Counted from the stretch's first letter, positions 1,476-63,757 are shown. The stretch: 63,757 nt of DNA from a virus (IMGVR_UViG_3300019458_000007:1-63757); one strand, 5' to 3'. Notes: generated by a model from the sequence alone, not told the origin. Made by a program: numbers and translations.

Positions 1476-1489
1476 GGAATGAAGAATAA
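1268..1489 (+). CDS. Zinc-ribbon segment in the -1 frame of the UDG-exonuclease gene
   Basis: This frame is open across the 3' end of the UDG-exonuclease gene and encodes PCGACGEGE, a well-formed hydrophobic/charged middle, and VCDECLGKF, i.e. two CxxC pairs about 30 residues apart. The overlapping zero frame is low-complexity from about 1320 onward, so real coding appears to switch frame at 1300-1325. Either a -1 frameshift (the frame changes around gag-aag-aaa-ccc at 1311-1322) appends the ribbon to the exonuclease, or it is a separate gene from TTG 1268 (a GGAGGAG lies 11 nt upstream), or the assembly has a one-base error. Family-A phage polymerases often have a cysteine-containing insert at this point. 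Confidence 0.5.
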   Translation: MAIVGGRLSGEDSEGEETPCGACGEGEVTAIILRVYEAGEEDRLVLKGRDLPVCDECLGKFFPKGKRRLGNEE

Positions 1490-1712
1490 GAGAAAAGCGT
1501 GCTCGACCGGTCACGGAACGGGCCTCCTCCAAGAGGCCTCCCTCGGGGAGCGTCTCAAGAGAGACAAGGAGCACCTTCTTGTGAAGCAGTTCACGAGAGC
1601 CTCCAAGCACCCCTTTAAGCGGCCCTCGAAGAAGATCATGAAGATCCTCTTTGAGCTACAGAAGGAGAAGGCGGAGGAGTTTGGGGGGTTCTCGGAAGGC
1701 GCTCCCCAGTGA
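1479..1712 (+). CDS. 77-residue basic protein between exonuclease and polymerase
   Basis: Starts at ATG 1479, overlapping the end of the zinc-ribbon frame, and ends overlapping the GTG of the polymerase gene (TGATCG context at 1709). It is Lys/Arg-rich with helical patterning (SLGERLKRDKEHLLVKQF, FKRPSKKIMKILFELQ). No family recognised. Its position, where contiguous UDG-exo-pol proteins carry the linker between exonuclease and thumb, suggests it is either a detached linker fragment of the ancestral polymerase or a small accessory subunit. The upstream GAAGGCTAGGG is only a modest ribosome site, so translational coupling is likely. Confidence 0.65.
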   Translation: MKNKRKACSTGHGTGLLQEASLGERLKRDKEHLLVKQFTRASKHPFKRPSKKIMKILFELQKEKAEEFGGFSEGAPQ

Positions 1713-12606: not shown

Positions 12607-12618
12607 TAGAGTATCTCC

Positions 12619-12921
12619 TTAGATTTGGTTGACGGTAGACGGAGAAGTGCTTGTCTCCAATGCTTGGCGTTGAGCTTCAAGCCGAGCGCGCTTTCTTGCA
12701 AGCTTCCATCTTGAAAACTCATCCAGAGAATCCTCATCCTCCTCCTTCATGCCTGCTAAGAGCCTACCCTCTGCCTTCATGCGTTCCAGATCGGCTTCGC
12801 GGGCCTCAGAGGTTTGTAGATCTAGAGGAGACGCTAACCGCGCAGGATTGCGACTTTGAATGATTCCAACACCAGGACTTTTGGGATCCATAACAAGATA
12901 CTGCTCACCCCAAGTAGCCAT
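12619..12921 (-). CDS. 100-residue hypothetical virion-region protein
   Basis: Mostly charged helix (EAREADLERMKAEGRLLAGM, RWKLARKRARLEAQRQALE). ATG 12921 abuts the stop of the gene at 12921-13265. Possibly a small internal protein or chaperone; function not recognised. Confidence 0.6.
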   Translation of the reverse strand: MATWGEQYLVMDPKSPGVGIIQSRNPARLASPLDLQTSEAREADLERMKAEGRLLAGMKEEDEDSLDEFSRWKLARKRARLEAQRQALETSTSPSTVNQI

Positions 12922-13265
12922 TAGATTACGTAGCCTCTACGTGCGGCGAGGCTTCCAGGAGTAACGCGCGCCGTACCGTAGTTCTGAAAGGTGCCGTGCG
13001 CGCCCGGAGGGGGAAGTATGGGAACTTCCATTCCCTCTGCCCCACGGTAGCCCTCATCGAGGGGCCTTGCCGGTGTTGGAGCCTGATAGTATGCAGGCTT
13101 AAACGCTTGCACAGACGGATTCACGACAGGCTGCGCCGCGGCCTTTTTCCGGGCCAGAGCGTCAAAGAGGGAGGCCCAGTCCTGCCCGGCCGGTCCACCC
13201 GGGCCCCCCGCAGTCTCCAGCCGGTACTGATCCGGCGTTTGGGTGTAAGAAATGTCAGGCGGCAT
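12921..13265 (-). CDS. 114-residue Pro/Tyr-rich protein
   Basis: Composition dominated by Pro, Gly, Ala and Tyr (KPAYYQAPTPARPLDEGYRG, VPILPPPGAHGTFQNYG). Likely disordered. Coupled to genes on both sides within the virion operon. Function unknown. Confidence 0.55.
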   Translation of the reverse strand: MPPDISYTQTPDQYRLETAGGPGGPAGQDWASLFDALARKKAAAQPVVNPSVQAFKPAYYQAPTPARPLDEGYRGAEGMEVPILPPPGAHGTFQNYGTARVTPGSLAARRGYVI

Positions 13266-13279
13266 CTTTAGGTCCTTTC

Positions 13280-14158
13280 TTAGGCGTAGCCAGAGGCGGC
13301 TAGAAGTTTAATCAGGGAATCAACCCCACCCTGTCTGAGGAGGCCCTGCTTATAGGCTGCGTCCTGGGCCGCCTGCCACTGCTGAAGGCCGAGGCCTTGC
13401 TGCTCGAGACCGAGCTGCGCCCCGATGGGAGCGAAACCACTCTCCATTCCGTAGGCGCCCTGAGTCAGGCCCGTCCGAGCGAGGCCGAGTTGGGACGGCG
13501 CAGAAAGAATCCCTTGACCCGCAATAGCGAGCTGGTCCAAGTCCCTCTCTCGCCCAAGTGAAATATCCGCCGCGCCCTTGGCCTGGAGACGTTGGGCCGC
13601 GCTCTCAATGGCGCTCCCACCAAAACCGGCGCCCCTTCCAGATCGCGCCGCCGCCTCTCTAGACCTCTCTCCCATTCCCGCAGCCCAGTCCCCAACAGCC
13701 GTTCCCTGGCGTTCAATTGCTCTCCGAGTTGGATCAGCACTCATCCGCTGTCGGAGGTTCGTGATGGACTCCATAAGGAAGGGATCCATCTGTCCTTCCT
13801 GAGTCTCCAACGTCTGAGTCCTCTTCGAGAGCTTCTTTGCCGTCTCCTCTACCCTAGGGTCTTTCTGCGCGACGCTGGTCAGTGGGGGCGCTCCAGGAAG
13901 CGTTCCCTGAGTTCCACTCTGAGCACCCCCACCCAAGATATTTCCCACCGCCCGAAGGATGGCAGGATCAGGGGCGCCCCCACCTCCCCCAACAGCTCCA
14001 CCAAAAGCTACTGTAGGAGCGCCCCCAGGAACTCCCGTGGGAGGAGCCGGGCCGGTCCTCCCAGGAACCGTCAACCGATTGGGATCGTTTGCAACCCTAT
14101 AGGTAGGAACTGGTTGAGCCCGTCCACCACCGGGTAGATCATCATAATAACCCATCAT
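13280..14158 (-). CDS. Putative internal/tail protein, Gly/Ala/Gln-rich
   Basis: 292 residues. N terminus is Gly/Pro-rich (GGAVGGGGGAPDPAIL); the middle is helical with an alanine-glycine tract (REAAARSGRGAGFGGSAIES), then Gln-rich helices (LGLEQQGLGLQQWQAAQDAA). This pattern is common in podovirus proteins lying between the stopper genes and the ejection protein. It starts at ATG 14158, overlapping the stop of the propeller-like gene. Confidence 0.55.
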   Translation of the reverse strand: MMGYYDDLPGGGRAQPVPTYRVANDPNRLTVPGRTGPAPPTGVPGGAPTVAFGGAVGGGGGAPDPAILRAVGNILGGGAQSGTQGTLPGAPPLTSVAQKDPRVEETAKKLSKRTQTLETQEGQMDPFLMESITNLRQRMSADPTRRAIERQGTAVGDWAAGMGERSREAAARSGRGAGFGGSAIESAAQRLQAKGAADISLGRERDLDQLAIAGQGILSAPSQLGLARTGLTQGAYGMESGFAPIGAQLGLEQQGLGLQQWQAAQDAAYKQGLLRQGGVDSLIKLLAASGYA

Positions 14159-15870
14159 TAACTCCTGAGTCTCTCTTGATGGCCAAGAGAGTGATAGATT
14201 CCGAAACCGCGGAGAGCAACCCCTACAGGCGCGCTCACGTTGAAGTCCAACGTTAGGCCCTTACCGTTCACCTCCGCCAGGGGGGCAAAGTAGATGGAGG
14301 TTCTAGGCACCTTCGCAAAGGGCGCCGTGATGGTACCTACCGGGATCGTAAGTGTCTTCTGTGGGGTGGCCGCCTCGTTGGCGGAATCGTCGCCCCCATA
14401 GAGGCCCACCGTCACGGCGTTGTTCTCGTTCTTGAGAAACACATCGAGGGAGTTGTAGTTCCGCCCATGCGCTTCATCACCGCTCTGATCACCAAAGAAG
14501 AAATGCTTCGTGGTGACTCGCATAGCTTTCATGAACGCGTCGCCATCGTCGTCGGCGTCATCCTCCACATTCTCCCTCCGAATGAACCCATCACAAGAAC
14601 CAGAGAGGAGTTCTCGATAGTGGTTCGAGTCGGAGATCACGATGCTCCCGATGGAGGAATCCTCCCGGGCGCGAATGTCGATCGTCCACCACGGCTCGGC
14701 TTCCCCCTTCCTCAGGGGCTCTATATGACCAATATACTTGAAGGTGCGAGGAGAGGCGGCCCGGGGAATTACCAACTGGTAAGTCTTCGTGTAACGGTCC
14801 TCAGCAGCAAAGCACGCCTCATAGATCCCTTGACTCGCTCGATAGTCGTCTCGCCAGAAGCGATGTAGGGAGTCGTTCATGAGATCGTGGAAGGCCCCGT
14901 CGTAGCGCCAAGGCCCTTCCTGTCCGGCGCCGAAGAGATCTGAATTAGGGCCCGCTAGTTGGAGAGCGTGATGCGAGAGCACCCCGTAGTAGTTGGAGAT
15001 CTTCACAATCTGGTAATCCCGAGAGGAGAATCCTTGGATCGCGTAGGCACCACCCAGGTAGCCTACAACGAGAATATCTCCCCACCGCTTTAGGCCCGTA
15101 ACGGCTTCTCCGTCGAGGGTGTCAATCCACCCACGCTCTTTCACAACCCGGTTGAAGCTCTCCGGCTCAAAGAGGCGAGAGAAGTAAACTCGCCCCGGGA
15201 AGTTGTAATCACCCGACACCCAATGGGCGTCATGATAGATTTCGTTGAAGCGCCCATTTGGCGGGACGCCTCTCGCGTAGATGTCCGCGTCGAACTCTCC
15301 ATCGAGGCCCTCGAAAACAGGGAGGCGCGTGCCGAGAGAGAGCGTCGGGAGGTTCTCCGTCACGGTCGTCACACCCAGAGTGCGCTCCCAGGCGAAGGCG
15401 GGGATTCCACCATCCATTGAGAGATACCCCCTGAGGTGTGTCACTCGGGGATTCACGGGCGAGTCGGGAAGATTGGACCAAACACGGCCCTCTCCGTTGA
15501 GTTCGAGGGTCGCCGAGGGGGTAGAAGGGTTGCCCTCCTGAACGACCTTCCCACCCTCCTTGTGGACATAGGTGAGGTATCCAATCGCGAGCCCAGACGA
15601 TCCGCCCGAGGAAGTACCGAGGGAAAGAGTTGGCCCCCTCTCCGGCGCCGGGACCCCCGCCACATGATTCGACCGCGCCTCCGTGATGACCAGAGGGGTA
15701 GTGAACATCCCGAATACGTAGACCCTCCCCTGATACTCTACCACAGACGGCCGGGTGTTGACATTCTGAGTCTGATCAGGAATACCCTGGTCGACGAAGT
15801 CTACCGTTGAGCTGGCCTTATAGTAGAGATGGTTGGCCGCCGCGCCCCTCGTCAAAGCCATGACTGCCAT
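14158..15870 (-). CDS. Tail-tube/stopper protein, beta-propeller-like (tubular-B type)
   Basis: 570 residues, all-beta. It contains YFSRLFEPESFNRVVKERGW, GEAVTGLKRWGDILVVGYLG and AYAIQGFSSRDYQIVKISNY, the order seen in T7 gp12-like and P22 gp10-like tail-tube or stabilisation proteins (position-dependent blades: fSRl-eP-sF, I-Gl-r-gd-lvV, ay-i-G-). The next gene upstream shows the matching first half of this system. Likely forms the short tail tube or plug below the adaptor. Confidence 0.75.
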   Translation of the reverse strand: MAVMALTRGAAANHLYYKASSTVDFVDQGIPDQTQNVNTRPSVVEYQGRVYVFGMFTTPLVITEARSNHVAGVPAPERGPTLSLGTSSGGSSGLAIGYLTYVHKEGGKVVQEGNPSTPSATLELNGEGRVWSNLPDSPVNPRVTHLRGYLSMDGGIPAFAWERTLGVTTVTENLPTLSLGTRLPVFEGLDGEFDADIYARGVPPNGRFNEIYHDAHWVSGDYNFPGRVYFSRLFEPESFNRVVKERGWIDTLDGEAVTGLKRWGDILVVGYLGGAYAIQGFSSRDYQIVKISNYYGVLSHHALQLAGPNSDLFGAGQEGPWRYDGAFHDLMNDSLHRFWRDDYRASQGIYEACFAAEDRYTKTYQLVIPRAASPRTFKYIGHIEPLRKGEAEPWWTIDIRAREDSSIGSIVISDSNHYRELLSGSCDGFIRRENVEDDADDDGDAFMKAMRVTTKHFFFGDQSGDEAHGRNYNSLDVFLKNENNAVTVGLYGGDDSANEAATPQKTLTIPVGTITAPFAKVPRTSIYFAPLAEVNGKGLTLDFNVSAPVGVALRGFGIYHSLGHQERLRS

Positions 15871-41797: not shown

Positions 41798-42370
41798 GTG
41801 AGTAGTCTAGTCCTAGCCGTCGTTTCGGGGATCATCATGGTGTCGGGGGACGTTAATGGCTCTACGGCTGTCGGGCACGCCTGTCCGATCTCCAGCACCA
41901 CCGCCCTGACCAACGCCCACGTCGCTTACAGCGACTCCAAACCCCGCACCCTGATCTACTCCGACGGGAATGGAGTAGAAGGCATCCTTCGCCCCGTCTT
42001 GGTGGATCAGGCGCGCGATCTTGCCCTTCTAGAGGTCGTCTCAGGATCAGACTTCCAGAAGTTTTTCCCCCTCGCCCCAGAGGCCCCTAAGAGGGGAGAT
42101 AGGGTCTGGTTGGAGGGTTACGATTTCACCAAGGGGGGCACACCCCGCATCGTAGAGACGGAGATCGTCAATCCCTCCCCCATCCTCTTCACCTACAAGA
42201 AGGGGGGCGGCCCAGGGAGTTCGGGCTCGTGCGTTATCAACTCCCTCGGGGAGGTGGTGGCCATCAACAAGGGTGCCCTTCCCAAAGATGCAGATAACAT
42301 GTGGGGTCGGGGCGTCCTCGTGGCGGGCGAAATGTGGTCAAAGATTATTCACAAGGAAGGAGGCCGCTGA
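41798..42370 (+). CDS. Trypsin-like (S1/HtrA-type) serine protease
   Basis: 190 residues from GTG 41798 (GGAAAGTGAGAA upstream). The order of catalytic elements is intact: TALTNAHVAY with His41, DQARDLALLEV with Asp74, GGGPGSSGSCVIN with Ser142 in the GSSG motif. The first 15 residues (MSSLVLAVVSGIIMV) are hydrophobic, suggesting export or membrane association. Trypsin-like folds of this length lack a PDZ domain. It overlaps the gamma-glutamylcyclotransferase gene (TGATG) and opens the amide-bond gene cluster. Possible roles: trimming a precursor for the ligases, or processing a host/virion protein. Confidence 0.88.
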   Translation: MSSLVLAVVSGIIMVSGDVNGSTAVGHACPISSTTALTNAHVAYSDSKPRTLIYSDGNGVEGILRPVLVDQARDLALLEVVSGSDFQKFFPLAPEAPKRGDRVWLEGYDFTKGGTPRIVETEIVNPSPILFTYKKGGGPGSSGSCVINSLGEVVAINKGALPKDADNMWGRGVLVAGEMWSKIIHKEGGR

Positions 42371-42702
42371 TGGAGCCATTGGCAGTTTACGGCACCCTCA
42401 AAAAGGGTTTTCGTCTACACCATCTTCTGATGGATTCCCCCTTCGAGGGGAACGCCACCCTCAAGGGATTCAACATGTACTCCGTGGGGTCTTACCCCGC
42501 CATCACGAGGGGGGAAGGAAGCGTGGAGGCGGAGGTCTACATGGTGGATCCACATCTCTTCCGTCAACTGGACGCGGTCGAGGGCGCGTATGAGAGGGAG
42601 AAACACCCCACTACCGACGGCAGGGAGGTTTGGATCTACGTGATGGACAGACACTTCGACGCCTATCACCTTGTCAAAGACGGTGTTTGGAGGCAGAGAT
42701 AA
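42370..42702 (+). CDS. Gamma-glutamylcyclotransferase-like (AIG2/GGCT family)
   Basis: 110 residues from ATG 42370, overlapping the protease stop. VYGTLKKGFRLHHLLMDSPF is the GGCT signature (YGTL plus G---h-ll). GFNMYSVGSYPAITRGEGSV and EVYMVDPHLFRQLDAVEGAY provide the rest, including the catalytic-type Glu in VEG. Family members release gamma-glutamyl groups as 5-oxoproline. In amidoligase gene sets of phages and bacteria such an enzyme recurs, where it may trim gamma-glutamyl tags. Confidence 0.9.
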   Translation: MEPLAVYGTLKKGFRLHHLLMDSPFEGNATLKGFNMYSVGSYPAITRGEGSVEAEVYMVDPHLFRQLDAVEGAYEREKHPTTDGREVWIYVMDRHFDAYHLVKDGVWRQR

Positions 42703-42728
42703 TTGGCGGGCTAGAGGAATGTATTGAC

Positions 42729-43142
42729 ATGGAGGAAATGACAAACCTGCTCGAAGAGCTAACCCCCAAGCCAGTGGTTATTCCTCGTAAGCGGAGATTC
42801 CTGCGATTGAGGGACTTGTCGGAGGGGGAGTCGGGATACGTACGACATACTGACTTACTCCTAACCAAAAAAGGCTACGGACACATACGCTATGATGCGG
42901 AGATACTATTCTACGGGCAGGTATCTCGCGAACTGCCGAGTGGACAACCCATCTTGTTGGTGAAGGTCGTAAGAGGGGGGGCTTCGGTGGTGGTCTATCG
43001 CTCGGAGAAGTCGCGGTGGCTCTTCGTCAGTCTGCCGTCTCAGATGAACCTGGATACCCTCCAGGGACTTTACGTCGTATCCTACGAGGAGCGGACGGAC
43101 TCACCGCCAGACCTCGACCCCGAAGTCCCAAAAACGCCTTGA
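42729..43142 (+). CDS. 137-residue hypothetical protein
   Basis: ATG 42729 with AGAGGAATG nine bases upstream (an upstream frame reaches 42630 but overlaps the GGCT gene). Product has a basic core (VVIPRKRRFLRLRDLSEGES) and YGHIRYDAEILFYGQVSREL, SVVVYRSEKSRWLFVSL; beta-rich, ending in an acidic/Pro tail. Unknown; lies inside the ligase cluster. Confidence 0.6.
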   Translation: MEEMTNLLEELTPKPVVIPRKRRFLRLRDLSEGESGYVRHTDLLLTKKGYGHIRYDAEILFYGQVSRELPSGQPILLVKVVRGGASVVVYRSEKSRWLFVSLPSQMNLDTLQGLYVVSYEERTDSPPDLDPEVPKTP

Positions 43143-43146
43143 AAAG

Positions 43147-43302
43147 GCTAAGTCCCAGTAATTCAACACTTTAGGGGGGCAGAAAGGCCGTTTTCAACCC
43201 CCTCTATAGATAGAGAGTCGTGAAAAGATAAATTTCAGCCACTACCGTTTTACAGTACGCCCTAGGGGTGCGTACTGCCGAGCCTGGAGGGGGGTTGAAA
43301 AG
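43147..43302 (+). other. Structured element B, homologue of element A
   Basis: Starts with a repeat of the 33.3-kb type (GCTAAGTCCCAGTAATTCAA then CACTTTAGGGG, 43147-43177). TTTTCAACCCCC (43191-43202) pairs with GGGGGTTGAAAA (43290-43301). Inside are CTCTAT/ATAGAG (43202-43215), GAGAGTCGTG (43213), ATTTCAGCCACTAC (43232) and, 21 bases after the start of that box, the 8-bp stem CAGTACGC/GCGTACTG (43253-43277). Order and spacing of the last three match 32758-32850. It ends 14 bases before the amidoligase GTG, so it may control that gene. Confidence 0.65.
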
Positions 43303-43315
43303 GGAGGATCAGACA

Positions 43316-44281
43316 GTGTTACTCGGTGCAGATCCAGAATTCTTTCTCCTCAAGGAGGGCAAGATCATTCCAGCCTCGGACGCTGGCCTCGGCAATGGGA
43401 AAGAAGACCCGGCGGCTAGGCTTAGGATGAGTGAGGCTATCGTCCTCTACCGTGATGGCTACGCAGCGGAGGTTAACTTTATCCACGCCTACAACTGCCG
43501 AGGCACTATGGGCAATGCTCTAAGAGCCGGGGTCATGGCTTTTCTTCGGAATACTGGTCTGTCAGCCAGCACTCTTCCATCTATTGAAGTTCCTCTACCC
43601 TCCCTCTTGAGTCTGCCAGTTGATGTTGCCACCTTCGGTTGCTCTCCTTCCCTCAACGCATGGGAGGATGGCCCCTGCGAGATCGACGTGGACGGACTAA
43701 CACACCCCTTCCGGTACTCCGGGGGCCACCTTTGGTTCTCCGCCCTAAAGCGGGATTGGTGGTGGACCTCCCACATCAGAGAGAGCGTGAAGCTCTTAGA
43801 CCTATTCCTCGGGGCGCCCTTTTCTTGGATGTTCGCCAGACCGGAGCACTTCAGACGGAGGTGCCTCTACGGGAAGGCGGGAGAGTATCGAGTCAAGGAC
43901 TTCCACGAAGGAAACTACCAAGGCCTAGAATATCGAACTCTCTCCGCTGAATGGATGAACCACGCGGTCTTCTTTTCCTTCGTCTTCGGGGTGGGTCGCC
44001 ATGTTCTTCAAAACGCACCTCATCTCTGGCGCGACTTTCAACCCTTCTTAGAGAAGGAGGGAGACCTTCTCCAACAGGCCATCAATACGGGAGAGGGACT
44101 GGACAAGCTAGTGGAGAAGACACGCCTCCTGCCCTTCTATACCTTCTCCACCCTAGAGAGTGTAAGAGAGAAGACAGAGTACGGGCAAAGGCGTTTCGAG
44201 TTTCGCCTCGACGATGTAAGTGATTTCCATCTCGGCTGGTTTACGACCCTCAACAAAGCCGGCATTGAGGAGGCGGCGTAG
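43316..44281 (+). CDS. COOH-NH2 ligase-type amidoligase (phage type 2)
   Basis: 321 residues from GTG 43316, which has AGGGAGG at ideal distance; an upstream in-frame GTG at 43268 lies within the hairpin of element B. The N terminus LLGADPEFFLLKEGKIIPAS is the COOH-NH2 ligase type-2 signature (GaDPEf--------v-As), followed by YRDGYAAEVNFIHAYNCRGT (Glu in the E-N/F motif), and YRVKDFHEGNYQGLEYRTLS (R..E...RtL). Members join a carboxylate and an amine using ATP with a glutamine-synthetase-like fold. It is one of two amidoligases in this cluster; substrate unknown. Confidence 0.88.
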   Translation: MLLGADPEFFLLKEGKIIPASDAGLGNGKEDPAARLRMSEAIVLYRDGYAAEVNFIHAYNCRGTMGNALRAGVMAFLRNTGLSASTLPSIEVPLPSLLSLPVDVATFGCSPSLNAWEDGPCEIDVDGLTHPFRYSGGHLWFSALKRDWWWTSHIRESVKLLDLFLGAPFSWMFARPEHFRRRCLYGKAGEYRVKDFHEGNYQGLEYRTLSAEWMNHAVFFSFVFGVGRHVLQNAPHLWRDFQPFLEKEGDLLQQAINTGEGLDKLVEKTRLLPFYTFSTLESVREKTEYGQRRFEFRLDDVSDFHLGWFTTLNKAGIEEAA

Positions 44282-44307
44282 AATCGGACTTCAAGAAGTT
44301 CTCTTTC

Positions 44308-44528
44308 CAAAGGAGGGGGCTCCCTCTCTACGTCAAGGTGTTTGGGTGGGTTGCGGACTGACGAGCGTGAGCGAACTCCTTTCGTGAAGTGTCCTCTGTG
44401 GGAAGGTTTCTTCTCTACTCGGAGACGAGGAGCGGGACACGTAAGCGATCGGACAGTTAGTACCGCGGCGTCCCACTCGGTCTCTTGAGCCGGGAGCTGC
44501 CACTATAGGGTTCGAGCCCCCTCCTTTG
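44308..44528 (+). other. Structured element: 16-bp perfect inverted repeat around 189 bases
   Basis: CCAAAGGAGGGGGCTC (44308-44323) is exactly complementary to GAGCCCCCTCCTTTGG (44513-44528). The interior contains CTCGG...CCGGGAG and other GC stems and a GGGTTCGAGCCCC sequence that imitates a tRNA T-arm. No open frame in 44282-44550. Lies between the first amidoligase and a zinc-binding gene. Likely a folded RNA or leader; not a tRNA (see rejected list). Confidence 0.6.
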
Positions 44529-44550
44529 GGGAGAGAAAGAAAGGAAAGAA

Positions 44551-44871
44551 ATGAAGAAGGAACAAGTAAGCTTCGTAGGTGAGGACGTTTACTTGGAGTA
44601 CCGAAACAAAGAATCCCTTTCGGATTATTGTTTCGCGTGTGGGACGGAGGATCGGATCCCGGTGGGAGGAGAGCACTACATCATCGTGGCTTCCGTCATA
44701 GAGGACGGGAAGACGGAAGACTTCTCGACCATCCATTTCTGCCCGAAACACATGACCGAGCTGGCGGAGCAAATCCTGCTCCACTGCTACCGCGTGGCGA
44801 CGGATAGGGAAGGTGGGGCGATCAAACTTCCACTCTTGAAGAACCTTTCGAAGACAGAAAAGGCCGCATAG
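44551..44871 (+). CDS. 106-residue zinc-binding protein
   Basis: ATG 44551 with AGAAAGGAAAGAA upstream. DYCFACGTEDRIPVGGEHY, STIHFCPKHMTELAEQILLH provide CxxC plus HFCPKH ligands. Similar small Cys/His proteins of phages are of unknown function. Lies between the two amidoligase genes. Confidence 0.7.
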   Translation: MKKEQVSFVGEDVYLEYRNKESLSDYCFACGTEDRIPVGGEHYIIVASVIEDGKTEDFSTIHFCPKHMTELAEQILLHCYRVATDREGGAIKLPLLKNLSKTEKAA

Positions 44872-44881
44872 GAGGTGTTAA

Positions 44882-45418
44882 GTGACATCTATTATAGACA
44901 CCGCCAGCTTCGATAGCAACATAGACACTAGCGGGGAGAGATTCATTTTCTCTAAAAAGCGAGGAAAACTTACCTTGAGGGTGAAGTCTCCACTCTTCGA
45001 AGAGGCCTTCAAGATCTCCTCGGGAGGGGAGATCTCTCCTGCCACAGACCCGGTTTGGGGGGCTCGACCCTATGTTCTCAAGCTGGACCGAGATGCTCAG
45101 CGGCGTTTTCAAGAGGAAGGAATCTTCCTTGCAGGCCTAGACCGAGTCTGGCACCATGCAATTGACGGTATGCCTAATGTTCCTACGCTTCGCAGAGAGA
45201 CTCCTGGTATCGTCCTGAACTTCGGCTTCCTCCTGATCCCGGGCATCAAAGACGGCATGACCTTCCCCCTTCGAGACACCATCCCACTCTCTCTCATAGA
45301 AGGGCCGGACTATCGTTTTACCAATGGCCTGAAGAGGGGACTCTACACGCTACTCAAGCATTTCGTCTTCGATTATGAACTCGACATTCAGATTAAGGTC
45401 GATCAAAAGGGGCTTTGA
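44882..45418 (+). CDS. 178-residue unknown protein coupled to the second amidoligase
   Basis: GTG 44882 with TAGGAGGTGTTA upstream; the stop overlaps the next ATG. Mixed alpha/beta: SGERFIFSKKRGKLTLRVKS, PYVLKLDRDAQRRFQEEGIF, PGIVLNFGFLLIPGIKDGMT, RGLYTLLKHFVFDYELDIQI. No catalytic motif seen. Companion genes of amidoligases often encode their substrate or carrier, and tight coupling to the 45418 gene makes this the best candidate here; that is inference. Confidence 0.75.
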   Translation: MTSIIDTASFDSNIDTSGERFIFSKKRGKLTLRVKSPLFEEAFKISSGGEISPATDPVWGARPYVLKLDRDAQRRFQEEGIFLAGLDRVWHHAIDGMPNVPTLRRETPGIVLNFGFLLIPGIKDGMTFPLRDTIPLSLIEGPDYRFTNGLKRGLYTLLKHFVFDYELDIQIKVDQKGL

Positions 45419-46077
45419 TGAAGTACATCTACAAAGTGGGGGTTGAGCTGGAGGGTGGGTGGAACAGACGGCCCCTACGGAAGGTGATCGTTGAGGACCG
45501 TTCTGTCAGGACACAACTCAACCACAATGGAGAGATCAACTCTCCTGCCTTTTCGGACCTAGACGCCCTGGAAGAGTGGCTCGTGGCTCATAGGCCTGAC
45601 GGAGTCGATACATCTTGCGGCTTCCACATACACCTCTCCTTCAAGTCGAGGATGGACTACCTCCGGCTAACCACCCCCCGCTTCTACAGATTTCTTCTAA
45701 AGATCATTAAGGCGTGGGCTATCGAGAAGGAGATTCCCGAGACTCACCACTTTTGGAAGCGCTTCAGAGGAACCTTTCGAGCCCCCAATGGAAGGAACTT
45801 CTGCCGTAAGGACTTTACCCCCGAAACGCAGCTTTACGAGACCCGTAAGGGTCCAGACGGCTCGGCCCGTCACTGTCACTTAAACTTCTGTTGGACCCTG
45901 CACAAGACGCTAGAGTTGCGCCTCTTCCCTGGATGGGAGACGGAGAGGAGTGCCTTGTATATGAGCGGCGTTCATTGCTTCGTGGAGGCGGTGGAGAAGT
46001 TTCTTCTCAGGGAGAGGAAAAGAAAGGTCAACAACATCAAGTTGAAGCTGGAACCGTTTAAGCGGCGCCCTCGCTAG
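45418..46077 (+). CDS. Amidoligase (Amidoligase_2-like)
   Basis: 219 residues from ATG 45418. KVGVELEGGW opens the protein (GvElE), VEDRSVRTQLNHNGEINSPA gives the D-S and GE-SP motifs, DTSCGFHIHLSFKSRMDYLR the conserved cGfHiHls, and LELRLFPGWETERSALY the Arg-containing C-terminal motif. These are the hallmarks of the amidoligase/GCS-like ATP-dependent COOH-NH2 ligases. It is a different subfamily from the one at 43316, so two distinct amide bonds or two substrates may be involved. Confidence 0.9.
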   Translation: MKYIYKVGVELEGGWNRRPLRKVIVEDRSVRTQLNHNGEINSPAFSDLDALEEWLVAHRPDGVDTSCGFHIHLSFKSRMDYLRLTTPRFYRFLLKIIKAWAIEKEIPETHHFWKRFRGTFRAPNGRNFCRKDFTPETQLYETRKGPDGSARHCHLNFCWTLHKTLELRLFPGWETERSALYMSGVHCFVEAVEKFLLRERKRKVNNIKLKLEPFKRRPR

Positions 46078-46097
46078 CGAAGGGAGGAGGGAGCAAA

Positions 46098-46298
46098 ATG
46101 TATAAGACCGACCGAAGCCGATGCGTGTGTCCCGATACTTGGGAGTGCCCCCACTGTGTGTATGCGTGCGAGTCCTGCTCAGACCAGCGAGAAAGCCGGA
46201 ACACGCTCACCGATCTGGAAGTGTTCGAAATAGCCGTATACGACCGAAGTTACACAGACTACGACGACGAGGACATGGACGAGGAGGTAAGCAAATGA
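46098..46298 (+). CDS. 66-residue Cys-rich protein
   Basis: GGAGGAGGGAGCAAA precedes ATG 46098. RCVCPDTWECPHCVYACESC has seven cysteines in 25 residues (knuckle-type zinc binding), then an acidic tail (YDDEDMDEEV). ATGA overlap with the next gene. Confidence 0.65.
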   Translation: MYKTDRSRCVCPDTWECPHCVYACESCSDQRESRNTLTDLEVFEIAVYDRSYTDYDDEDMDEEVSK

Positions 46299-47029
46299 AA
46301 ATCACACGAGACATAGCCCAAAAGGTGTTGAAAGTGGTGGACGCAGGGCTCGTGAAGGGAATCGGTAATCCGGTGCCGGGGAAAATGTGCGTGGAGGCCG
46401 CGGTCTGCTACGCCCTTGGCCTTCCGCACGGGGATCAGCCAAACTGCGTGGGCGAGGCGGTCCGACAGTTCAAAATCCCACTAAACGACGCACGGTGGTC
46501 TTCGGATGAGGCTCGAACGACAGGGCTGCGGAAATTGGCCGTGGCTCAACTTGGAAGCGACACCATCGACCAGAGAGAGTTCGCGCGATTGGTGGCCGAG
46601 GGCACCATTCGGCAAGTATTACCGGAGATGCTGCGCCGCGTGGCGCAAAGGGAGGCGGCTAATCACGAGGAAGCCCTCAGGGCGGCGGCGTTGCGGTGTG
46701 AGCAAGAAGGTACAGCGGAAGCAGCACTGATAGCGCGAGATAGCGCGCTCGCCGCCCGCGAGGCCTCCCGCGCCGCCTTCCACTGCGCCGCCGCCCTCTT
46801 CGCGGCCGCCGCCTCCGCCTCCGCCTTCGCGGCCTCCGCCTTCGCGGCCGCCGCCTCCGCCTCCGCCGGCGCCTACGCCGCCTCCGCCGCCTCCGCGGCC
46901 TACGCCGACTACGCCGCCTCCGCCGAACGGGATCACATCTTGATGATTTCCGCGAACGTCGGACTTCAGGCTCTTATCACGCTCAAGTCACCTGGCGCAC
47001 AATTCTTGGATTTGTGTGAAGGAGAGTGA
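46295..47029 (+). CDS. Protein with alanine-rich repeat tract
   Basis: 244 residues from ATG 46295 (a longer frame overlaps the previous gene). The N domain is PGKMCVEAAVCYALGLPHGD, VGEAVRQFKIPLNDARWSSD, TGLRKLAVAQLGSDTIDQRE, a conserved-looking fold. Residues about 150-220 are an Ala-Ser/Tyr tract built from GCC-TCC-GCC units (AAAASASAFAASAFAAAASA, YAASAASAAYADYAASA). The N domain pattern with a variable alanine tract occurs in other phages and bacteria without known function. DNA of the tract is repetitive and length-variable in principle. Confidence 0.7.
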   Translation: MKITRDIAQKVLKVVDAGLVKGIGNPVPGKMCVEAAVCYALGLPHGDQPNCVGEAVRQFKIPLNDARWSSDEARTTGLRKLAVAQLGSDTIDQREFARLVAEGTIRQVLPEMLRRVAQREAANHEEALRAAALRCEQEGTAEAALIARDSALAAREASRAAFHCAAALFAAAASASAFAASAFAAAASASAGAYAASAASAAYADYAASAERDHILMISANVGLQALITLKSPGAQFLDLCEGE

Positions 47030-47031
47030 TA

Positions 47032-47223
47032 ATGGGCACGACGAAGCAATGGGGTGCCGTGGGAATGCAAGCGTCCAGAGACACGAGAGGCGAGAACATG
47101 ATCTTCGGTGACTACGACTCGTGGAAGACGACTCCCCCCGACGATCCCCCCGAGGACCGATGGGGCTACGATCCCGACGCGGAAGCGGACGCGGGCTATT
47201 TCGAGGATGAAGAGGACCAGTGA
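47032..47223 (+). CDS. 63-residue acidic protein
   Basis: ATG 47032 with GGAGAG seven bases upstream. WGAVGMQASRDTRGENMIFG then an acidic, aromatic tail (DPDAEADAGYFEDEEDQ). Unknown. Overlaps the next gene (TGATG). Confidence 0.6.
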   Translation: MGTTKQWGAVGMQASRDTRGENMIFGDYDSWKTTPPDDPPEDRWGYDPDAEADAGYFEDEEDQ

Positions 47224-47690
47224 TGAGGGGTAAAAGAAGGGTGGAGCCTGTTTCGCGCAAGTTGGGGAACGCGCGCCTGCTGCGGCTGGCGCGTCTCTTG
47301 CGGACGAAGAAGGTGCAGCGGAGGTTCGACTTCCGCTTTTGGGTCGGAGGTAACTGGAAGGGCGCGTGGGATCTTTCCTGTGGGACCACGGCCTGCGCGC
47401 TAGGCTGGGCGACGACCGATCCGTATTTCCGGCGTTTGGGGCTGAGGCTAACCCGCGACTTTGAGGTAACGCGGTTGGGGGTGGCCGGGGTGGATTGGGA
47501 CGAGCTAGACACTAATGTCGAGTTGCTGTTTCCTGCGACGTCGCTCTTCGGTATAACCGTATTGGAGGCGTCGGATCTATTCGTTCCAGGCTACAAATTG
47601 CCCGCCGGCGCTTCCGCTCTCCAGGTCGCCGAGCACATCGAAGCCTTCGTCGCCGCCCGAAAAGGCTCCAGTCGAGGGAGGTGCGCTTGA
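47223..47690 (+). CDS. 155-residue protein with CALGWA motif
   Basis: ATG 47223. Basic N terminus (RGKRRVEPVSRKLGNARLLR), then FWVGGNWKGAWDLSCGTTAC ALGWATTDPYFRRLGLRLTR and a C-terminal helix (ALQVAEHIEAFVAAR). The CGTTACALGWA block with a following helix belongs to a phage family related in style to 38536 and 37027. Function unknown. Confidence 0.7.
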   Translation: MRGKRRVEPVSRKLGNARLLRLARLLRTKKVQRRFDFRFWVGGNWKGAWDLSCGTTACALGWATTDPYFRRLGLRLTRDFEVTRLGVAGVDWDELDTNVELLFPATSLFGITVLEASDLFVPGYKLPAGASALQVAEHIEAFVAARKGSSRGRCA

Positions 47691-47866
47691 GAACACACGA
47701 CCATCGTCAAAGCTTGTGGATTCTCGCCGGGGGTCGCATCTTGTGGTGTTGGCGCTGTGGCGCGTGGCGGGCGAATGATCACGACTCGAAATGGTACCAG
47801 CCAGCGGGGAAGGGGGCCAAGACTCCCCATCGTGGCGTTCGAATACTATCCGATCTTGTAAGGTAA
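47687..47866 (+). CDS. 59-residue zinc-knuckle protein (TTG start)
   Basis: TTG 47687 overlaps the previous stop (GTG 47681 is an alternative). WILAGGRILWCWRCGAWRAN then NDHDSKWYQPAGKGAKTPHR: one CxxC pair plus aromatic residues. Unknown. Confidence 0.55.
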   Translation: MRTHDHRQSLWILAGGRILWCWRCGAWRANDHDSKWYQPAGKGAKTPHRGVRILSDLVR

Positions 47867-47909
47867 GGAGGAGGCGAAGTGACGATCTACGAGGAAGGAG
47901 AGATGTCTC

Positions 47910-48770
47910 GTGTGCATCATATTTCACGTTAAGGAGGCTCGCCCCGACGACAACATGCTTCAGCGGGCACAGGAAAGAAACTCCGATGGGATTGGACTGG
48001 CTTGGCGGGAGACGATTAAGGGAGAGCGGTTGGTTCGGTGGGAGAAAGGTCTCACTGTGGACTATCTTCTTGAGAAGCTTCACAAGAAGGAACCACCAAA
48101 GCCCTACGTGATTCACTTTCGAAAGGCCTCTGTGGGAGCCACAGATCCTAGGCTCTGCCACCCCTTCGTAGTAACTCCTCGTACGCCTCTCGACTTGAAG
48201 GGCACTGCTAAGACCGTCCTTTTCCACAACGGCCACTGGAACTCGTGGAGATTCGATCTAAAAAGACTCATAATGGAGCGGAGAAAGGAGATCCCCACAG
48301 GTCCTTGGACTGACTCGCGAGCTATAGCCTTCTTTTTCGCGGTTTATGGCCCTGGTGTGACGGCCTTCGAGGATTTCGGTGGGGATCAGCGCCTCTTGCT
48401 CTTTTCTGCCGACGAGAACAAGACCTTCAGGTGGGGCTCGTGGTCGGCGAGAGAGGGTTTCGACCACTCCAATCCATCCAAGGACTGGATGGGTGCGATC
48501 AACATCGCTCCAGAGGTAGACCTCTGGAAACAGGAAGAAGAGACCGAGGGAAAGGGGAAGAAGGCGAAGGGCGGCACGCAGTTCCTCTTAGAAGCGGCGA
48601 AAGCCGTCATGACCGGAGCCCGAGTCGGGAAGAAGTCAAAGAAGAATGAGGAAAGCACTCCCCTCGATTCCTCTAGGTTTTGGTCTAATGACGAGTTGAG
48701 GCAAGTGCTGATCGAGCTGAGGCAGTTTGCCTTCAAGGAATACACGCTTTGTCGGCAGAAGGCCGCATAG
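47910..48770 (+). CDS. Class II glutamine amidotransferase (Ntn hydrolase)
   Basis: 286 residues. The GTG at 47910 yields Met-Cys, so Cys2 becomes the N-terminal nucleophile after Met removal. Further class II GATase motifs: NSDGIGLAW (24-32), VIHFRKASVG (68-76, Arg binding glutamine), HPFVV (84), FHNGHW (105-110, oxyanion Asn-Gly). The C-terminal region is Lys/Glu-rich (TEGKGKKAKGGTQ). It would release ammonia from glutamine, or use related chemistry, for the neighbouring ligases. AAGGAGAGATGTCTC is the ribosome site. Confidence 0.9.
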   Translation: MCIIFHVKEARPDDNMLQRAQERNSDGIGLAWRETIKGERLVRWEKGLTVDYLLEKLHKKEPPKPYVIHFRKASVGATDPRLCHPFVVTPRTPLDLKGTAKTVLFHNGHWNSWRFDLKRLIMERRKEIPTGPWTDSRAIAFFFAVYGPGVTAFEDFGGDQRLLLFSADENKTFRWGSWSAREGFDHSNPSKDWMGAINIAPEVDLWKQEEETEGKGKKAKGGTQFLLEAAKAVMTGARVGKKSKKNEESTPLDSSRFWSNDELRQVLIELRQFAFKEYTLCRQKAA

Positions 48771-48818
48771 GAAGGAGGAGGGAAGCGCTGACCCGCTTCC
48801 GCCGTAGGAGGTGAGAGG

Positions 48819-49043
48819 ATGAAATGCACTGCAACGTGCAAGATCGGCGAGGTCGTCTTCGAGTGCGCCCGTAGACGGGCTCATCGCGAACACGCCGCAG
48901 GCCATGGTCTCTTTGCGCGAGTCGTCTGGTTCGACGTAGACACAGCCGTCTCGCTGCTCGCTGCCAAGGCTTGCATGCAGAGCGATATCAATGCCGCACT
49001 CCTTGCTAAGGGGCTGCCTCTGCCCGTCTCGGAGGAAAAATAA
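48819..49043 (+). CDS. 74-residue hypothetical protein
   Basis: ATG 48819 with AGGAGGTGAGAGG. MKCTATCKIGEVVFECARRR, EHAAGHGLFARVVWFDVDTA, VSLLAAKACMQSDINAALLA. Four cysteines/histidines. Overlaps the ATP-grasp gene by one base. Confidence 0.6.
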   Translation: MKCTATCKIGEVVFECARRRAHREHAAGHGLFARVVWFDVDTAVSLLAAKACMQSDINAALLAKGLPLPVSEEK

Positions 49044-49741
49044 TGATCTACGTCTTCGCTGACCGCCCTTCTCGGAGCGCTCGGCTCCTCTCTAAGCTGC
49101 TCGGAGCGAAGCGGCTCACCTCACCCAGGAAGCTTTCTAGGGGAGACGTCGTCATCAACTGGGGCTCTTCTGTGGAGTGGGCCGTGGGAGCCAAAGTCCT
49201 TCAAGCCTCTCTCAAGGCCAACAAGTTGGTAGAGTTGGAGGCCCTTTCAAAAAAGGGCATACCCACCCCTTCCTTCTCAACTAAACCGAAAGAAGGGTGG
49301 CTAGGCCGAAGTCTTCATCACTCCCACGGAAGAGACTTCTTGAGACCACTCCTCTTTCCAGCCTTCTGGACAAAGAAGCTAGACCTCATCAAGGAGTATC
49401 GTTGCCACGTCTTCGACTTTGAAGGCGACGACATTCGAATACTTCGTTGGGGCCAACGTCTTCCAAAACCAGGCGCCCACGAATGGATCCGCTCTACCGA
49501 AGCTGGATGGCGGCTCTCCTACGGGAGGGCTCTTCCAAAGGGCCTACGAAGCATAGCAAAGGGGGCCGTCCGGGCGTTGGGTTATGCTTGGGGTGCCGTT
49601 GACACGGGGATTACGAGTGACGGTTGTAGGGTCGTTCTGGAGGTGAACTCCGCCCCCGGACTAGACGAGGGGGGCCAAACGATTCAACTTTATGCCGAGG
49701 CCATCAGAGAAATGATAGGAGGGAGGGATGGTAGACCTTAA
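49043..49741 (+). CDS. ATP-grasp ligase
   Basis: 232 residues. KKLDLIKEYRCHVFDFEGDD (K-EyR-hv) and GCRVVLEVNSAPGLDE (E-N of the metal site) are ATP-grasp landmarks; RALGYAWGAVDTGITSDG precedes. N-terminal RGDVVINWGSS is the pre-ATP-grasp Rossmann-like part. It would ligate a carboxylate to an amine through an acyl phosphate, as in RimK or peptide-ligase toolkits. It is the third ligase type in the 42-50 kb cluster. Confidence 0.88.
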   Translation: MIYVFADRPSRSARLLSKLLGAKRLTSPRKLSRGDVVINWGSSVEWAVGAKVLQASLKANKLVELEALSKKGIPTPSFSTKPKEGWLGRSLHHSHGRDFLRPLLFPAFWTKKLDLIKEYRCHVFDFEGDDIRILRWGQRLPKPGAHEWIRSTEAGWRLSYGRALPKGLRSIAKGAVRALGYAWGAVDTGITSDGCRVVLEVNSAPGLDEGGQTIQLYAEAIREMIGGRDGRP

Positions 49742-50308: not shown

Positions 50309-50511
50309 AGATCTACCTGCGGGGCGACCTCTCGAAGGCCGTCATTGTCTGCGATGAGTGTGGGGTTCAGCCGGACGGATTCCTGCCTGTGGGGTTGTGG
50401 AATCTGGACTGCGGGCACAAACTCTGCTCTGACTGCTACGCCTACGCGGAAGAGTTCGGCATTGGCGTTCATCGGGATGTGTGCCCAAGGTGGAAGGTCG
50501 GGGCCGCGTGA
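50305..50511 (+). CDS. 68-residue RING/treble-clef-like protein
   Basis: ATG 50305 overlaps the previous stop. VIVCDECGVQPDGFLPVGLW, LDCGHKLCSDCYAYAEEFGI: C-x2-C, CGH-x-LC-x2-C spacing like a degenerate RING or zinc ribbon. In phages such domains are rarely characterised. Confidence 0.6.
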   Translation: MKIYLRGDLSKAVIVCDECGVQPDGFLPVGLWNLDCGHKLCSDCYAYAEEFGIGVHRDVCPRWKVGAA

Positions 50512-50963
50512 GGAGGGCCGCATGGTGGATGGTAGTCCTTTTTTTAACCCTCACCTCGCCCTCTTCGAGGGTGACGGAGGAATCCCCATCTGGTGGCGGG
50601 GACGAATTAGCTCCACTGAGGGAGTCGCTCGCTCTTATGGGTTACCTGTCTCCACCCCGGCCCCCCTTGCCCGGGAGATTCCTTCTTACAGCATACTGTA
50701 CGTGCGAGGTCTGTACCGCCCCCTTTTCTGACGGCTTCACCTCGACGGGAGCGAGGGCAACAGAGGGTCGGACGATAGCCGTCGACCCCCTCTACATCCC
50801 CATCGGTACATGGGTAGAGATCGAGGGCTTGGGTAAGCGGAGAGCGGAGGACATCGGGGGAGCGATTAAACAACAGAGGATTGACGTTTTCATTGACGAC
50901 CATCGGAGGGCGAGGCAGTTCGGAGTGAGGAGAAGTTGGACTAGAAGGGTGGGAGGAGGATAG
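50508..50963 (+). CDS. 3D-domain cell-wall protein with N-terminal membrane segment, copy 2
   Basis: 151 residues from GTG 50508. RRAAWWMVVLFLTLTSPS is a signal anchor. The 3D/double-psi barrel starts LLTAYCTCEVCTAPFSDGFT, continues RTIAVDPLYIPIGTWVEIEG and LGKRRAEDIGGAIKQQRIDV, FIDDHRRARQFGVR. It is a paralogue of the 29602 protein but exported and in the rightward unit, so it would act on wall from the periplasmic side late in infection. The Asp of the DTG motif of copy 1 reads DIG here. Confidence 0.8.
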   Translation: MRRAAWWMVVLFLTLTSPSSRVTEESPSGGGDELAPLRESLALMGYLSPPRPPLPGRFLLTAYCTCEVCTAPFSDGFTSTGARATEGRTIAVDPLYIPIGTWVEIEGLGKRRAEDIGGAIKQQRIDVFIDDHRRARQFGVRRSWTRRVGGG

Positions 50964-50966
50964 GAG

Positions 50967-51209
50967 ATGTTAGGGCTGGAACCCAACCTCATGTGGGAGG
51001 TCACCTTCGATCTAGACTCTGGGAGTCGGAACAAGGTGCTTGTCCTCGAAGACTGGGATCTTGATGATGATGATAAGTACCGAGCCGAGGTGATTAGGAA
51101 GTTGAAGAAGCGGATTCAAGCGCGTCTCGGCCCGTCGAAGATTACTCGGATCCACAAAATCAGGCTAGTGGAGAGCGGCGTTTATTTCGTAGGGGGCGGC
51201 GATGAGTAG
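50967..51209 (+). CDS. 80-residue hypothetical protein
   Basis: ATG 50967 with GGAGGATAGGAG. LMWEVTFDLDSGSRNKVLVL, DDDDKYRAEVIRKLKKRIQA, ITRIHKIRLVESGVYFVGGG: alternating strands and a charged helix. Unknown; overlaps the RNA ligase start by eight bases. Confidence 0.65.
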   Translation: MLGLEPNLMWEVTFDLDSGSRNKVLVLEDWDLDDDDKYRAEVIRKLKKRIQARLGPSKITRIHKIRLVESGVYFVGGGDE

Positions 51210-52329
51210 TTCAACACACAAAGTCGAGGTCTTCCGGATTGATCGCATTTACGAGCACCCCGACGCAGACGCGCTGGAGATCGTCAAACCCTGGGGCTAT
51301 CAGTGCGTAGTGAGAAAAGGGGAGTGGAAGGAGGGTGACCTGGCCGCCTACGTTCCTCCTGATAGCCTCGTCCCTCTGGACGTGGTCGAATTCGCCTGGC
51401 TCAAGGACTTGGGCCGCACGTCAAAGAGCATAGACGGCCGTCTCTACCACAGAGTGACTGCGATCCGTCTGCGGAAGGAACCTTCCCTCGGGGTGGTCGT
51501 CCCCATTTGGCGCGTCGGCGGGGCCGTAGGGGACGATGTTGGGCCAGCTCTAGGCGTCATCCACTACGATCCTCCCTCGAAGGAGCCGAAGGAGAAGGAG
51601 AGGAAGCCGTGGTGGACCAAGAAGTTCCGACCCAACGTTCGTGTCCCAATCTACGATCTCGAATCCCTTCGTCGCTACTCTTCCCTCTTTGAGGAGGGCG
51701 AGCCCGTGGTGGTAACGGAGAAGATCCACGGCGCCAACTTTAGAGCCGTTTGGGACGACACGAAGTGGATCGTCCTCACGAGGGATGGTCTTCGAGTCGG
51801 GCCTATCGCCATGAAGTGGGGCGGTTTTGGCCGGGGCCTCTCCCTCGTTCCCTCTCATGAACGTTACCTATGGGTAGGAAGTCGTACTCAATGGCGTTTG
51901 AAGGACCACTCCGATTGGTGGAAGGTGATCGACAAGTACCCCCAAGTGGTGGACTTCCTCCGGGCCTATCCGGAAGTCGCCCTCTATGGGGAAGTCTACG
52001 GGGACGTTCAAGACCTTCGTTACGGAAGAGGCCCGGGGGAGATCGACTTCGCAGCCTTTGACATTCTCGCGGAGGATGGCTTTGTCGATGCCATGCTCTT
52101 ACCAGAGCTTCTCTACCCATTCGATATCCCAATTGCTCCCATAATCGGGATCGTTCCATTCAACATGGAGTCCGTTCTCTCCCTGGCAGAAGGGCCTTCT
52201 GTAGTGAAGGGGGCGAACCACCTTCGAGAGGGTGTCGTCGTGAAGCCGGTTGAGGAGCGCCATCACCCCGCTGTGGGGAGGGTCGCCCTAAAGGTAGTGA
52301 GTGTCGCTTACTTGGAGAGACAGAAATGA
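51202..52329 (+). CDS. RNA ligase (Rnl-type, DRB0094-like architecture)
   Basis: 375 residues. Residues 1-115 form an OB-fold-like N domain (KVEVFRIDRIYEHPDADALE, GDLAAYVPPDSLVPLDVV). The nucleotidyltransferase domain has VVTEKIHGANFRAV (Lys174 as nucleotide-accepting residue), VALYGEVYGDVQDLRYG (motif IIIa-like), LREGVVVKPVEERH (motif IV) and VALKVVSVAYLERQ (motif V). Such enzymes seal nicked RNA, often tRNA cut by host defence nucleases. No kinase/phosphatase partner recognised. Coupled by ATGA to the next gene. Confidence 0.88.
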   Translation: MSSSTHKVEVFRIDRIYEHPDADALEIVKPWGYQCVVRKGEWKEGDLAAYVPPDSLVPLDVVEFAWLKDLGRTSKSIDGRLYHRVTAIRLRKEPSLGVVVPIWRVGGAVGDDVGPALGVIHYDPPSKEPKEKERKPWWTKKFRPNVRVPIYDLESLRRYSSLFEEGEPVVVTEKIHGANFRAVWDDTKWIVLTRDGLRVGPIAMKWGGFGRGLSLVPSHERYLWVGSRTQWRLKDHSDWWKVIDKYPQVVDFLRAYPEVALYGEVYGDVQDLRYGRGPGEIDFAAFDILAEDGFVDAMLLPELLYPFDIPIAPIIGIVPFNMESVLSLAEGPSVVKGANHLREGVVVKPVEERHHPAVGRVALKVVSVAYLERQK

Positions 52330-59175: not shown

Positions 59176-59293
59176 GGAAGACGAGTTCCTAAAGGTGGAG
59201 GCCGCCTACATGGAATCGGCCCTCCGAGTGGCGGCGCTAATTCAGGCTGCGGCCAAGAAGGCGAAGCAGAACGGGAAGGATAAGGAGGAGTGA
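59147..59293 (+). CDS. 48-residue small protein between holin and endolysin
   Basis: TTG 59147 with GGAGG six bases upstream. KSIPLLPAREDEFLKVEAAY, MESALRVAALIQAAAKKAKQ. Its stop overlaps the endolysin GTG. Could be a lysis accessory, but there is no signal or membrane segment. Confidence 0.5.
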   Translation: MKSIPLLPAREDEFLKVEAAYMESALRVAALIQAAAKKAKQNGKDKEE

Positions 59294-59646
59294 GCCTCAA
59301 AGAGCAGAGAATCTTCTTCACCCTCCAGGTTGCCACTCTCATAGAGTGGGCCTCCTCTCTAGGCTACGATCTAGCCTTTGACGAGGCGAGGGTGTTCTCC
59401 CCTAGGAGAGTCAGGAAGAATGGAGAGACGTTCTTTGCGGAAGATGCCGTCCACAAGAAGGGCTCCCGTCACCACGACGGGCGCGCGGTTGATCTCCTCC
59501 TCTACATAGACGGCAAGTACATCTCTAACGGGGACCACCCAGCGTGGGCCCGCTTAGGGGAGTTCTGGAAGTCCCTCTCCCCACATCTTACCTGGGGTGG
59601 AGATTTCCCTTCCAAGGACGCTAATCACTTCTCCATCTTTGAGTAA
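59290..59646 (+). CDS. Endolysin, M15-type peptidase (VanY/L-Ala-D-Glu peptidase-like)
   Basis: 118 residues from GTG 59290 (GTGA overlap, AAGGAGG upstream). HKKGSRHHDGRAVDLLLYID carries SxHxxGxAxD with the zinc His/Asp; LTWGGDFPSKDANHFSIF carries the second zinc His in the WGGdf---D--HF motif. Single-domain enzymes of about 120-140 residues cleave peptide cross-bridges in peptidoglycan. Follows the holin-like gene, forming the lysis cassette. Confidence 0.9.
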   Translation: MSLKEQRIFFTLQVATLIEWASSLGYDLAFDEARVFSPRRVRKNGETFFAEDAVHKKGSRHHDGRAVDLLLYIDGKYISNGDHPAWARLGEFWKSLSPHLTWGGDFPSKDANHFSIFE

Positions 59647-63447: not shown

Positions 63448-63450
63448 AGC

Positions 63451-63757
63451 TTGATTAACATCATCAAGCTCAGAAAAGACCTCCTCCCTAAACCTCCAAC
63501 GTGTAAGGGCTGCCCCCTCTTCGGTGATGGCTTCGGCTTCTCTCGTACGAGAGGAGAAGGAAAGGAGAAGATCCTTATCTTTGGTGAAGCCCTAGGGGAA
63601 GAAGAGGAGCTGGCGGGCATCGCCTTCGTTGGGAAGACTGGCTCCTTCCTCTCTAGAATCATCTCTCGGACAATCGACCCCGAGACGAACCTCCCCCTCT
63701 CCATTGATCGTGACTTTTGGGTCCGCAACACGGTCATGTGTCGTCCCCCAAACAACG
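63451..63757 (+). CDS. UDG-like / exonuclease protein, 5' part
   Basis: TTG 63451, in frame with and three bases after the MazG stop, begins INIIKLRKDLLPKPPTCKGC. The visible UDG motifs are KILIFGEALGEEEELAG, AFVGKTGSFLSRI and, near the end, VRNTVMCRPPNN. The frame leaves the window and continues at 3-1475. GAGGGCG is a weak ribosome site, so coupling to MazG is likely. CKGCPLF gives a first Cys of a possible Fe-S or zinc site of family-4 enzymes. Confidence 0.85.
   Translation, partial: MINIIKLRKDLLPKPPTCKGCPLFGDGFGFSRTRGEGKEKILIFGEALGEEEELAGIAFVGKTGSFLSRIISRTIDPETNLPLSIDRDFWVRNTVMCRPPNN
63635..63757. repeat. Terminal direct repeat, right copy
   Basis: Identical to 1-123; see the left copy. 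Confidence 0.95.

Follow-up and report, generated by a model that had tools for sequence, protein, structure and literature searches.

What does a phage do with a run of enzymes that make and break amide bonds? The question is raised by IMGVR_UViG_3300019458_000007:1-63757, a phage record of 63,757 bases (hereafter the window, meaning the whole stretch of DNA analyzed), in which positions 41798 to 49741 encode a serine protease, a gamma-glutamyl cyclotransferase (GGCT), two amidoligases, a glutamine amidotransferase (GATase) and an ATP-grasp ligase. The initial annotation read these six genes as an uncommon combination for making and trimming gamma-glutamyl or isopeptide tags, with the protease freeing or removing the tag. 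All six genes are real, and we conclude with high confidence that the window genes represent a divergent variant of a known podovirus amidoligase cassette. The reading as an amide-bond toolkit stands, while the supposed uncommonness and the part given to the protease do not. New here is a distinct sub-type of the cassette with a conserved seventh gene, c7, at 44882-45418, which the initial annotation overlooked. The features of the locus are as follows.

41798..42370, plus strand: Trypsin_2-type serine protease, 190 amino acids (Pfam Trypsin_2, 1.8e-11); a neighbor, not a cassette member
42370..42702, plus strand: GGCT/GGACT, AIG2-like gamma-glutamyl cyclotransferase (Pfam GGACT, 3.9e-23; phrog_2520, 1.4e-15); optional member
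43268..44281, plus strand: COOH-NH2 ligase type 2, a glutamine-synthetase-fold amidoligase (Pfam COOH-NH2_lig, 2.1e-8; phrog_3815, 9.5e-23)
44882..45418, plus strand: probable c7-family protein, 178 amino acids (hhalign to the c7 profile; slot between the glutamine-synthetase-fold ligases)
45415..46077, plus strand: Amidoligase_2 family ligase, short divergent form (iterated profile, 1.1e-29)
47910..48770, plus strand: class II (N-terminal nucleophile, Ntn) GATase, standalone, Cys2 nucleophile (iterated profile, 8.2e-21; GlmS-like model)
49043..49741, plus strand: RimK-like ATP-grasp ligase, short-lid form (phrog_2599, 2.4e-17)

The podovirus amidoligase cassette

A "peptidoglycan modification cassette" has been described for PSA-HP1, RIO-1, phiEco32, PA11, tf, LUZ24, PaP3 and CW02 (PMC5498523). 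The same genes are listed there, located among replication genes (PMC5498523; PMC3890496), and the UFV-P2 paper gives the cassette gene by gene (PMC3890496). The window likewise holds GGCT, a class II GATase, a COOH-NH2 ligase type 2, an Amidoligase_2 enzyme and a RimK-like ATP-grasp ligase together, and the early/replication strand carries the genes in both the window and the classical form. The initial comparison with phiEco32-type toolkits was correct in this respect (PMC5498523).

Both ligases, GATase, ATP-grasp and a protein of about 185 amino acids, A1, occur all together in 15/15 annotated phage records (11 picked via the COOH-NH2 ligase, four via other cassette genes or by name), and GGCT is found in 11 of the 15. 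A single-sequence scan of IMG/VR found no relatives, while an alignment-based query retrieved them. All four ligase and GATase genes were jointly present in 50 of 80 IMG/VR loci, which were retrieved via the COOH-NH2 ligase and many of which are cut by contig ends; individually, GATase was detected in 69 of these loci, Amidoligase_2 in 59, ATP-grasp in 58 and GGCT in 30. Since matches to the window proteins are few among 50,697 phage records (at least 50 for the COOH-NH2 ligase and at least 201 for ATP-grasp), co-occurrence of the cassette genes is far above chance. With these counts, a combination taken for uncommon proves to be a described and widespread podovirus cassette (PMC5498523, PMC3890496).

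We file the window as a variant and not as a typical member because A1 (phrog_4877/phrog_11055), which lies between the ligases in the classical form, is absent and its slot is occupied by c7. The window Amidoligase_2 is also shorter and, like that of the sub-type relatives aligned, without the third Glu of G-x-E-x-E-x-E, and the lid of the window ATP-grasp is shortened. Searched by tblastn against the 50,697 phage records, the window Amidoligase_2 was too distant to give a match, and the sub-type Amidoligase_2 query gave none in the same set.

The positions and families of the six genes are borne out by Pfam, PHROG, iterated profiles and a GlmS-like fold. Neither result named in the initial annotation as refuting it was obtained: profile searches support the enzymes, and neighborhood comparison finds them together in relatives. 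Protease, GGCT and COOH-NH2 ligase pass the Pfam cut-offs directly, and the ATP-grasp ligase matches its lineage relatives with expectation values (E) of 4e-46 to 3e-30. Direct Pfam searches fell below cut-off for Amidoligase_2 (E 0.052, 13.8 vs 22 bits) and for GATase (GATase_4, E 0.13). Iterated profiles, seeded from classical phage cassettes and extended through IMG/VR relatives, reach the window Amidoligase_2 (1.1e-29) and GATase (8.2e-21) with the window itself excluded; the iteration runs via the window's own relatives and shows a continuous family, not direct similarity to distant members. A protein of the same Amidoligase_2 family in locus L131 clears the Pfam cut-off alone (33.9 vs 22 bits). 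On this sequence evidence we assign the window protein to Amidoligase_2 (PF12224) despite its low direct score. Its structural model (mean predicted local distance difference test, pLDDT, of 70) had no significant Foldseek match, all hits having E > 0.1; the top ones were mostly glutamine synthetases and also YbdK, PafA and McsB, which lends weak backing to the predicted fold. The GATase is a class II glutamine amidotransferase with its N-terminal Cys nucleophile, Ntn fold and glutamine-binding motifs; its predicted structure matches the GlmS glutaminase domain (Foldseek 2.8e-6), with pLDDT of about 90 across most of the N-terminal half.

Assignment of the ATP-grasp ligase to the R2K clade (PF18299) was tried and rejected (R2K_2, 15.0 vs a cut-off of 26.2 bits), RimK-like phrog_2599 fitting better. 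A PADLOC search for defense systems matched no cassette enzyme and only the protease, by weak protease-domain matches, and an NCBIfam search added nothing further for the cassette proteins. No bacterial chromosomal relatives of Amidoligase_2 were found in genome_contigs. The true start of the COOH-NH2 ligase may be GTG 43316 rather than 43268, and that of Amidoligase_2, either TTG 45415 or ATG 45418, overlaps the stop codon of c7.

Active-site residues were compared at columns at least 93% conserved among 42 to 98 relatives per family. The window retains 9/9 such columns in GATase (including C2, H69, R71, N107, G108 and D135), 3/3 in GGCT (including both Glu), 26/28 in COOH-NH2 ligase (changed at H156 to W and N227 to A) and 7/8 in ATP-grasp (K139 to R). 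In Amidoligase_2, where the set included the G-E-E, D-S, E, H-x-H, R, N and E-x-R residues, 12/13 are retained, all but Y153H.

The c7-type lineage

The window Amidoligase_2, GATase and ATP-grasp are nearest to those of a few uncultured phages (G003, G009, G010, G011 and G021; cassette loci L123, L126, L129, L127 and L121, respectively); three more loci of the sub-type, L125, L128 and L130, came from a second scan. The window and the five lineage genomes have the DNA polymerase and the cassette in common, and most also a portal-like protein and a PD-(D/E)XK nuclease. The c7-type cassettes in IMG/VR contain the same gene families as the window, mostly in the same order. The window order of GGCT, COOH-NH2 ligase, c7, Amidoligase_2, GATase and ATP-grasp is identical in L128 and L129, with GGCT upstream of the COOH-NH2 ligase as in the window, and the order from COOH-NH2 ligase to ATP-grasp recurs in L123, L126 and L127. 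The relatives differ in that several have a further gene, c9, between GATase and ATP-grasp where the window has none, most are without GGCT, three have c7 downstream, and their protease is located elsewhere. The c9 gene (12414-13535 in L126) belongs to a conserved family with CxxC pairs and has homologs in L123, L127, L128 and L129. A phage contig of 150 kilobases (kb), L122, carries a duplicated sub-type cassette at 8139-15310, with two Amidoligase_2 genes, two GATases and c7 in 7 kb.

In the lineage, the usual slot of the c7 family is between the two glutamine-synthetase-fold ligases. The window open reading frame (ORF) 44882-45418 lies at this very place, and hhalign matches it to the c7 profile at the C-terminus (probability 81, E 1.2e-5, 60 columns), while hmmsearch against c7 gives only 0.036; homology is probable but not proven. 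The c7 proteins tested had no Pfam or PHROG match, and a c7 protein query had no match in the 50,697 phage records. We also considered this ORF as an A1 homolog, which is unsupported, as no A1 match was found in the window. Among 95 loci, A1 was present in 51 and c7 in five, never both. No sequence similarity was found between A1 and c7, which may be equivalent in function or homologous at a very great distance. The c7 protein probably works with the two glutamine-synthetase-fold ligases, either as their partner or by carrying their substrate.

The c7-type variant separates the constant parts of the cassette (two ligases, GATase and ATP-grasp) from an optional one (GGCT) and a swapped one (A1 for c7). 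In the sub-type, GATase is the constant neighbor of Amidoligase_2, and the two stay side by side even in loci that gave no match to the other ligases (L119, L120, L131, L132, L134 and L136), consistent with an ammonia-supply pair. The smallest unit indicated by the variant is Amidoligase_2 plus GATase, sometimes with c7.

Chemistry, target and rival explanations

Making and trimming of gamma-glutamyl or isopeptide bonds is plausible. The class II GATase would release ammonia from glutamine, and the adjoining Amidoligase_2 would amidate a carboxylate with it at the expense of ATP. Further amide or gamma-glutamyl-type bonds could be formed by the other two enzymes, the COOH-NH2 and ATP-grasp ligases, and GGCT, if present, would take off a gamma-glutamyl group as 5-oxoproline. 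In butirosin biosynthesis, a gamma-glutamyl protecting group is added by an ATP-grasp ligase and removed by the GGCT-fold enzyme BtrG. An ATP-grasp ligase and a GGCT-fold enzyme likewise occur together in the window, but neither an acyl carrier protein nor genes for an antibiotic were seen there. A cytosolic substrate is expected because the cassette enzymes have no obvious export signal by eye and their genes lie on the early/replication strand. Action on peptidoglycan side chains and a block of superinfection have been put forward as proposals only (PMC5498523, PMC10580990), prevention of superinfection being the proposed role of the cassette (PMC5498523). Our preferred reading, to which we would give an even chance, is that 42370-49741, without the protease, is a divergent c7-type podovirus cassette for amide-bond chemistry with a cell-wall peptide precursor as its preferred target, following the published proposal. 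Our confidence is moderate in the chemistry and low in the target.

Several points weigh against this reading. Of the five lineage genomes retrieved, four lack GGCT, and the classical GATase is often found upstream of the COOH-NH2 ligase instead of beside Amidoligase_2. The COOH-NH2 ligase of the window departs from its family at two near-invariant positions and may therefore differ in activity. The absence of signal peptides was judged by eye. The cassette occurs in many phage contigs, including the well-studied phiEco32 and LUZ24, yet in the literature searched we found neither a demonstrated function nor an experimental test of any phage cassette, and the wall target is an earlier published inference.

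The same cassette could act on a protein: much as RimK modifies ribosomal protein S6, the ligases would attach an amino acid or a peptide tag to a protein of the host or the phage, and GGCT would trim it. We regard this as unlikely but worth serious consideration. The ATP-grasp ligase matches RimK-like phrog_2599, and Burroughs et al. propose host-protein modification by related phage ATP-grasp ligases (PMC4431377); however, leaving aside c7 and A1, which might serve as one, no conserved gene for a tag peptide was found, and the published reading of the cassette is wall modification. Auxiliary metabolism, with nitrogen channeled into compounds resembling glutamate or glutathione to serve the infected host, is how the same gene set was interpreted in a study of Poriferisphaera phage ZRK32 (PMC10945688). 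That study tested the whole phage and not the genes (PMC10945688), and three different carboxylate-amine ligases with a dedicated class II GATase exceed the needs of simple nitrogen assimilation, leaving this explanation decidedly doubtful. More doubtful again is the idea that c7, like A1 in the classical form, is a ribosomally made substrate or carrier, on which both glutamine-synthetase-fold ligases and the ATP-grasp ligase assemble an amide-linked product; if this long shot were true, the cassette would be a phage carrier-protein or protein-tag pathway, not a wall-modifying one. Very unlikely, in our view, is that the window copy is decaying and partly inactive. The conserved-column changes in COOH-NH2 ligase (H156W, N227A), Amidoligase_2 (Y153H) and ATP-grasp (K139R) could be so interpreted, as could several unrelated small ORFs between the cassette genes, but every frame is intact, GATase keeps all of its conserved columns, and overlapping start and stop codons are retained.

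We find it hard to credit the full model of the initial annotation, in which the protease works in the cassette and frees or removes an isopeptide tag. The catalytic triad of H, D and S is visible in the protease (TNAHV, DLALL and GSSGS), its stop codon overlaps the GGCT ATG (42370) by one base (TGATG), and a Trypsin_2 protease is encoded in 7/8 lineage genomes with the sub-type cassette. In these relatives, however, its gene is on the other strand from the cassette and, in record coordinates, tens of kilobases off, which weakens the model, and on this location we rejected the protease as a cassette member. Only 4/54 other cassette phages have such a protease, leaving 50 without it. The five lineage proteases that were aligned have signal-peptide-like N-termini and are mutually similar, but show scarcely any similarity to the window protease (best E 0.003). 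Given that the proteases of relatives are distant, on the opposite strand and dissimilar, and that other cassette phages seldom encode one, the single base shared with GGCT is a local arrangement and not evidence of tag removal.

Genome setting and neighboring genes

The genome around the cassette, about 63.6 kb long, is most likely complete and either circular or terminally redundant, since the record has identical ends of 123 base pairs (1-123 and 63635-63757) and the DNA polymerase reading frame continues over the junction. The plus strand carries early and replication genes, and the minus strand late genes, among them those for portal-like and terminase-like proteins. The polymerase gene is of family A and spans the record ends (63448-63757 plus 1-3847) as two ORFs, split near 1475/1709. 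Its second ORF has an in-frame insert with intein-like sequence, about 310 amino acids long, after "TGRLS|C" (about 2017-2948); in five relatives the polymerase is a single uninterrupted ORF.

Between Amidoligase_2 and GATase, 46295-47029 encodes an alanine-rich protein (phrog_3416, 0.0045) with no homolog in the loci examined. A 3D-domain protein with a hydrophobic N-terminal stretch (50481-50963; PF06725, 7e-13) lies 0.7 kb downstream of the cassette. It was considered as a link to the cell wall and rejected: the domain is real but present in 0/17 related records. Also downstream of the cassette, 51202-52329 encodes an RNA ligase (PF09414, 6e-20) that includes a PHA02142 OB-fold domain and has homologs in L075 and L037. 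A Peptidase_M15_4-like D,D-carboxypeptidase at 59290-59646 (2.4e-6) is a candidate lysis enzyme.

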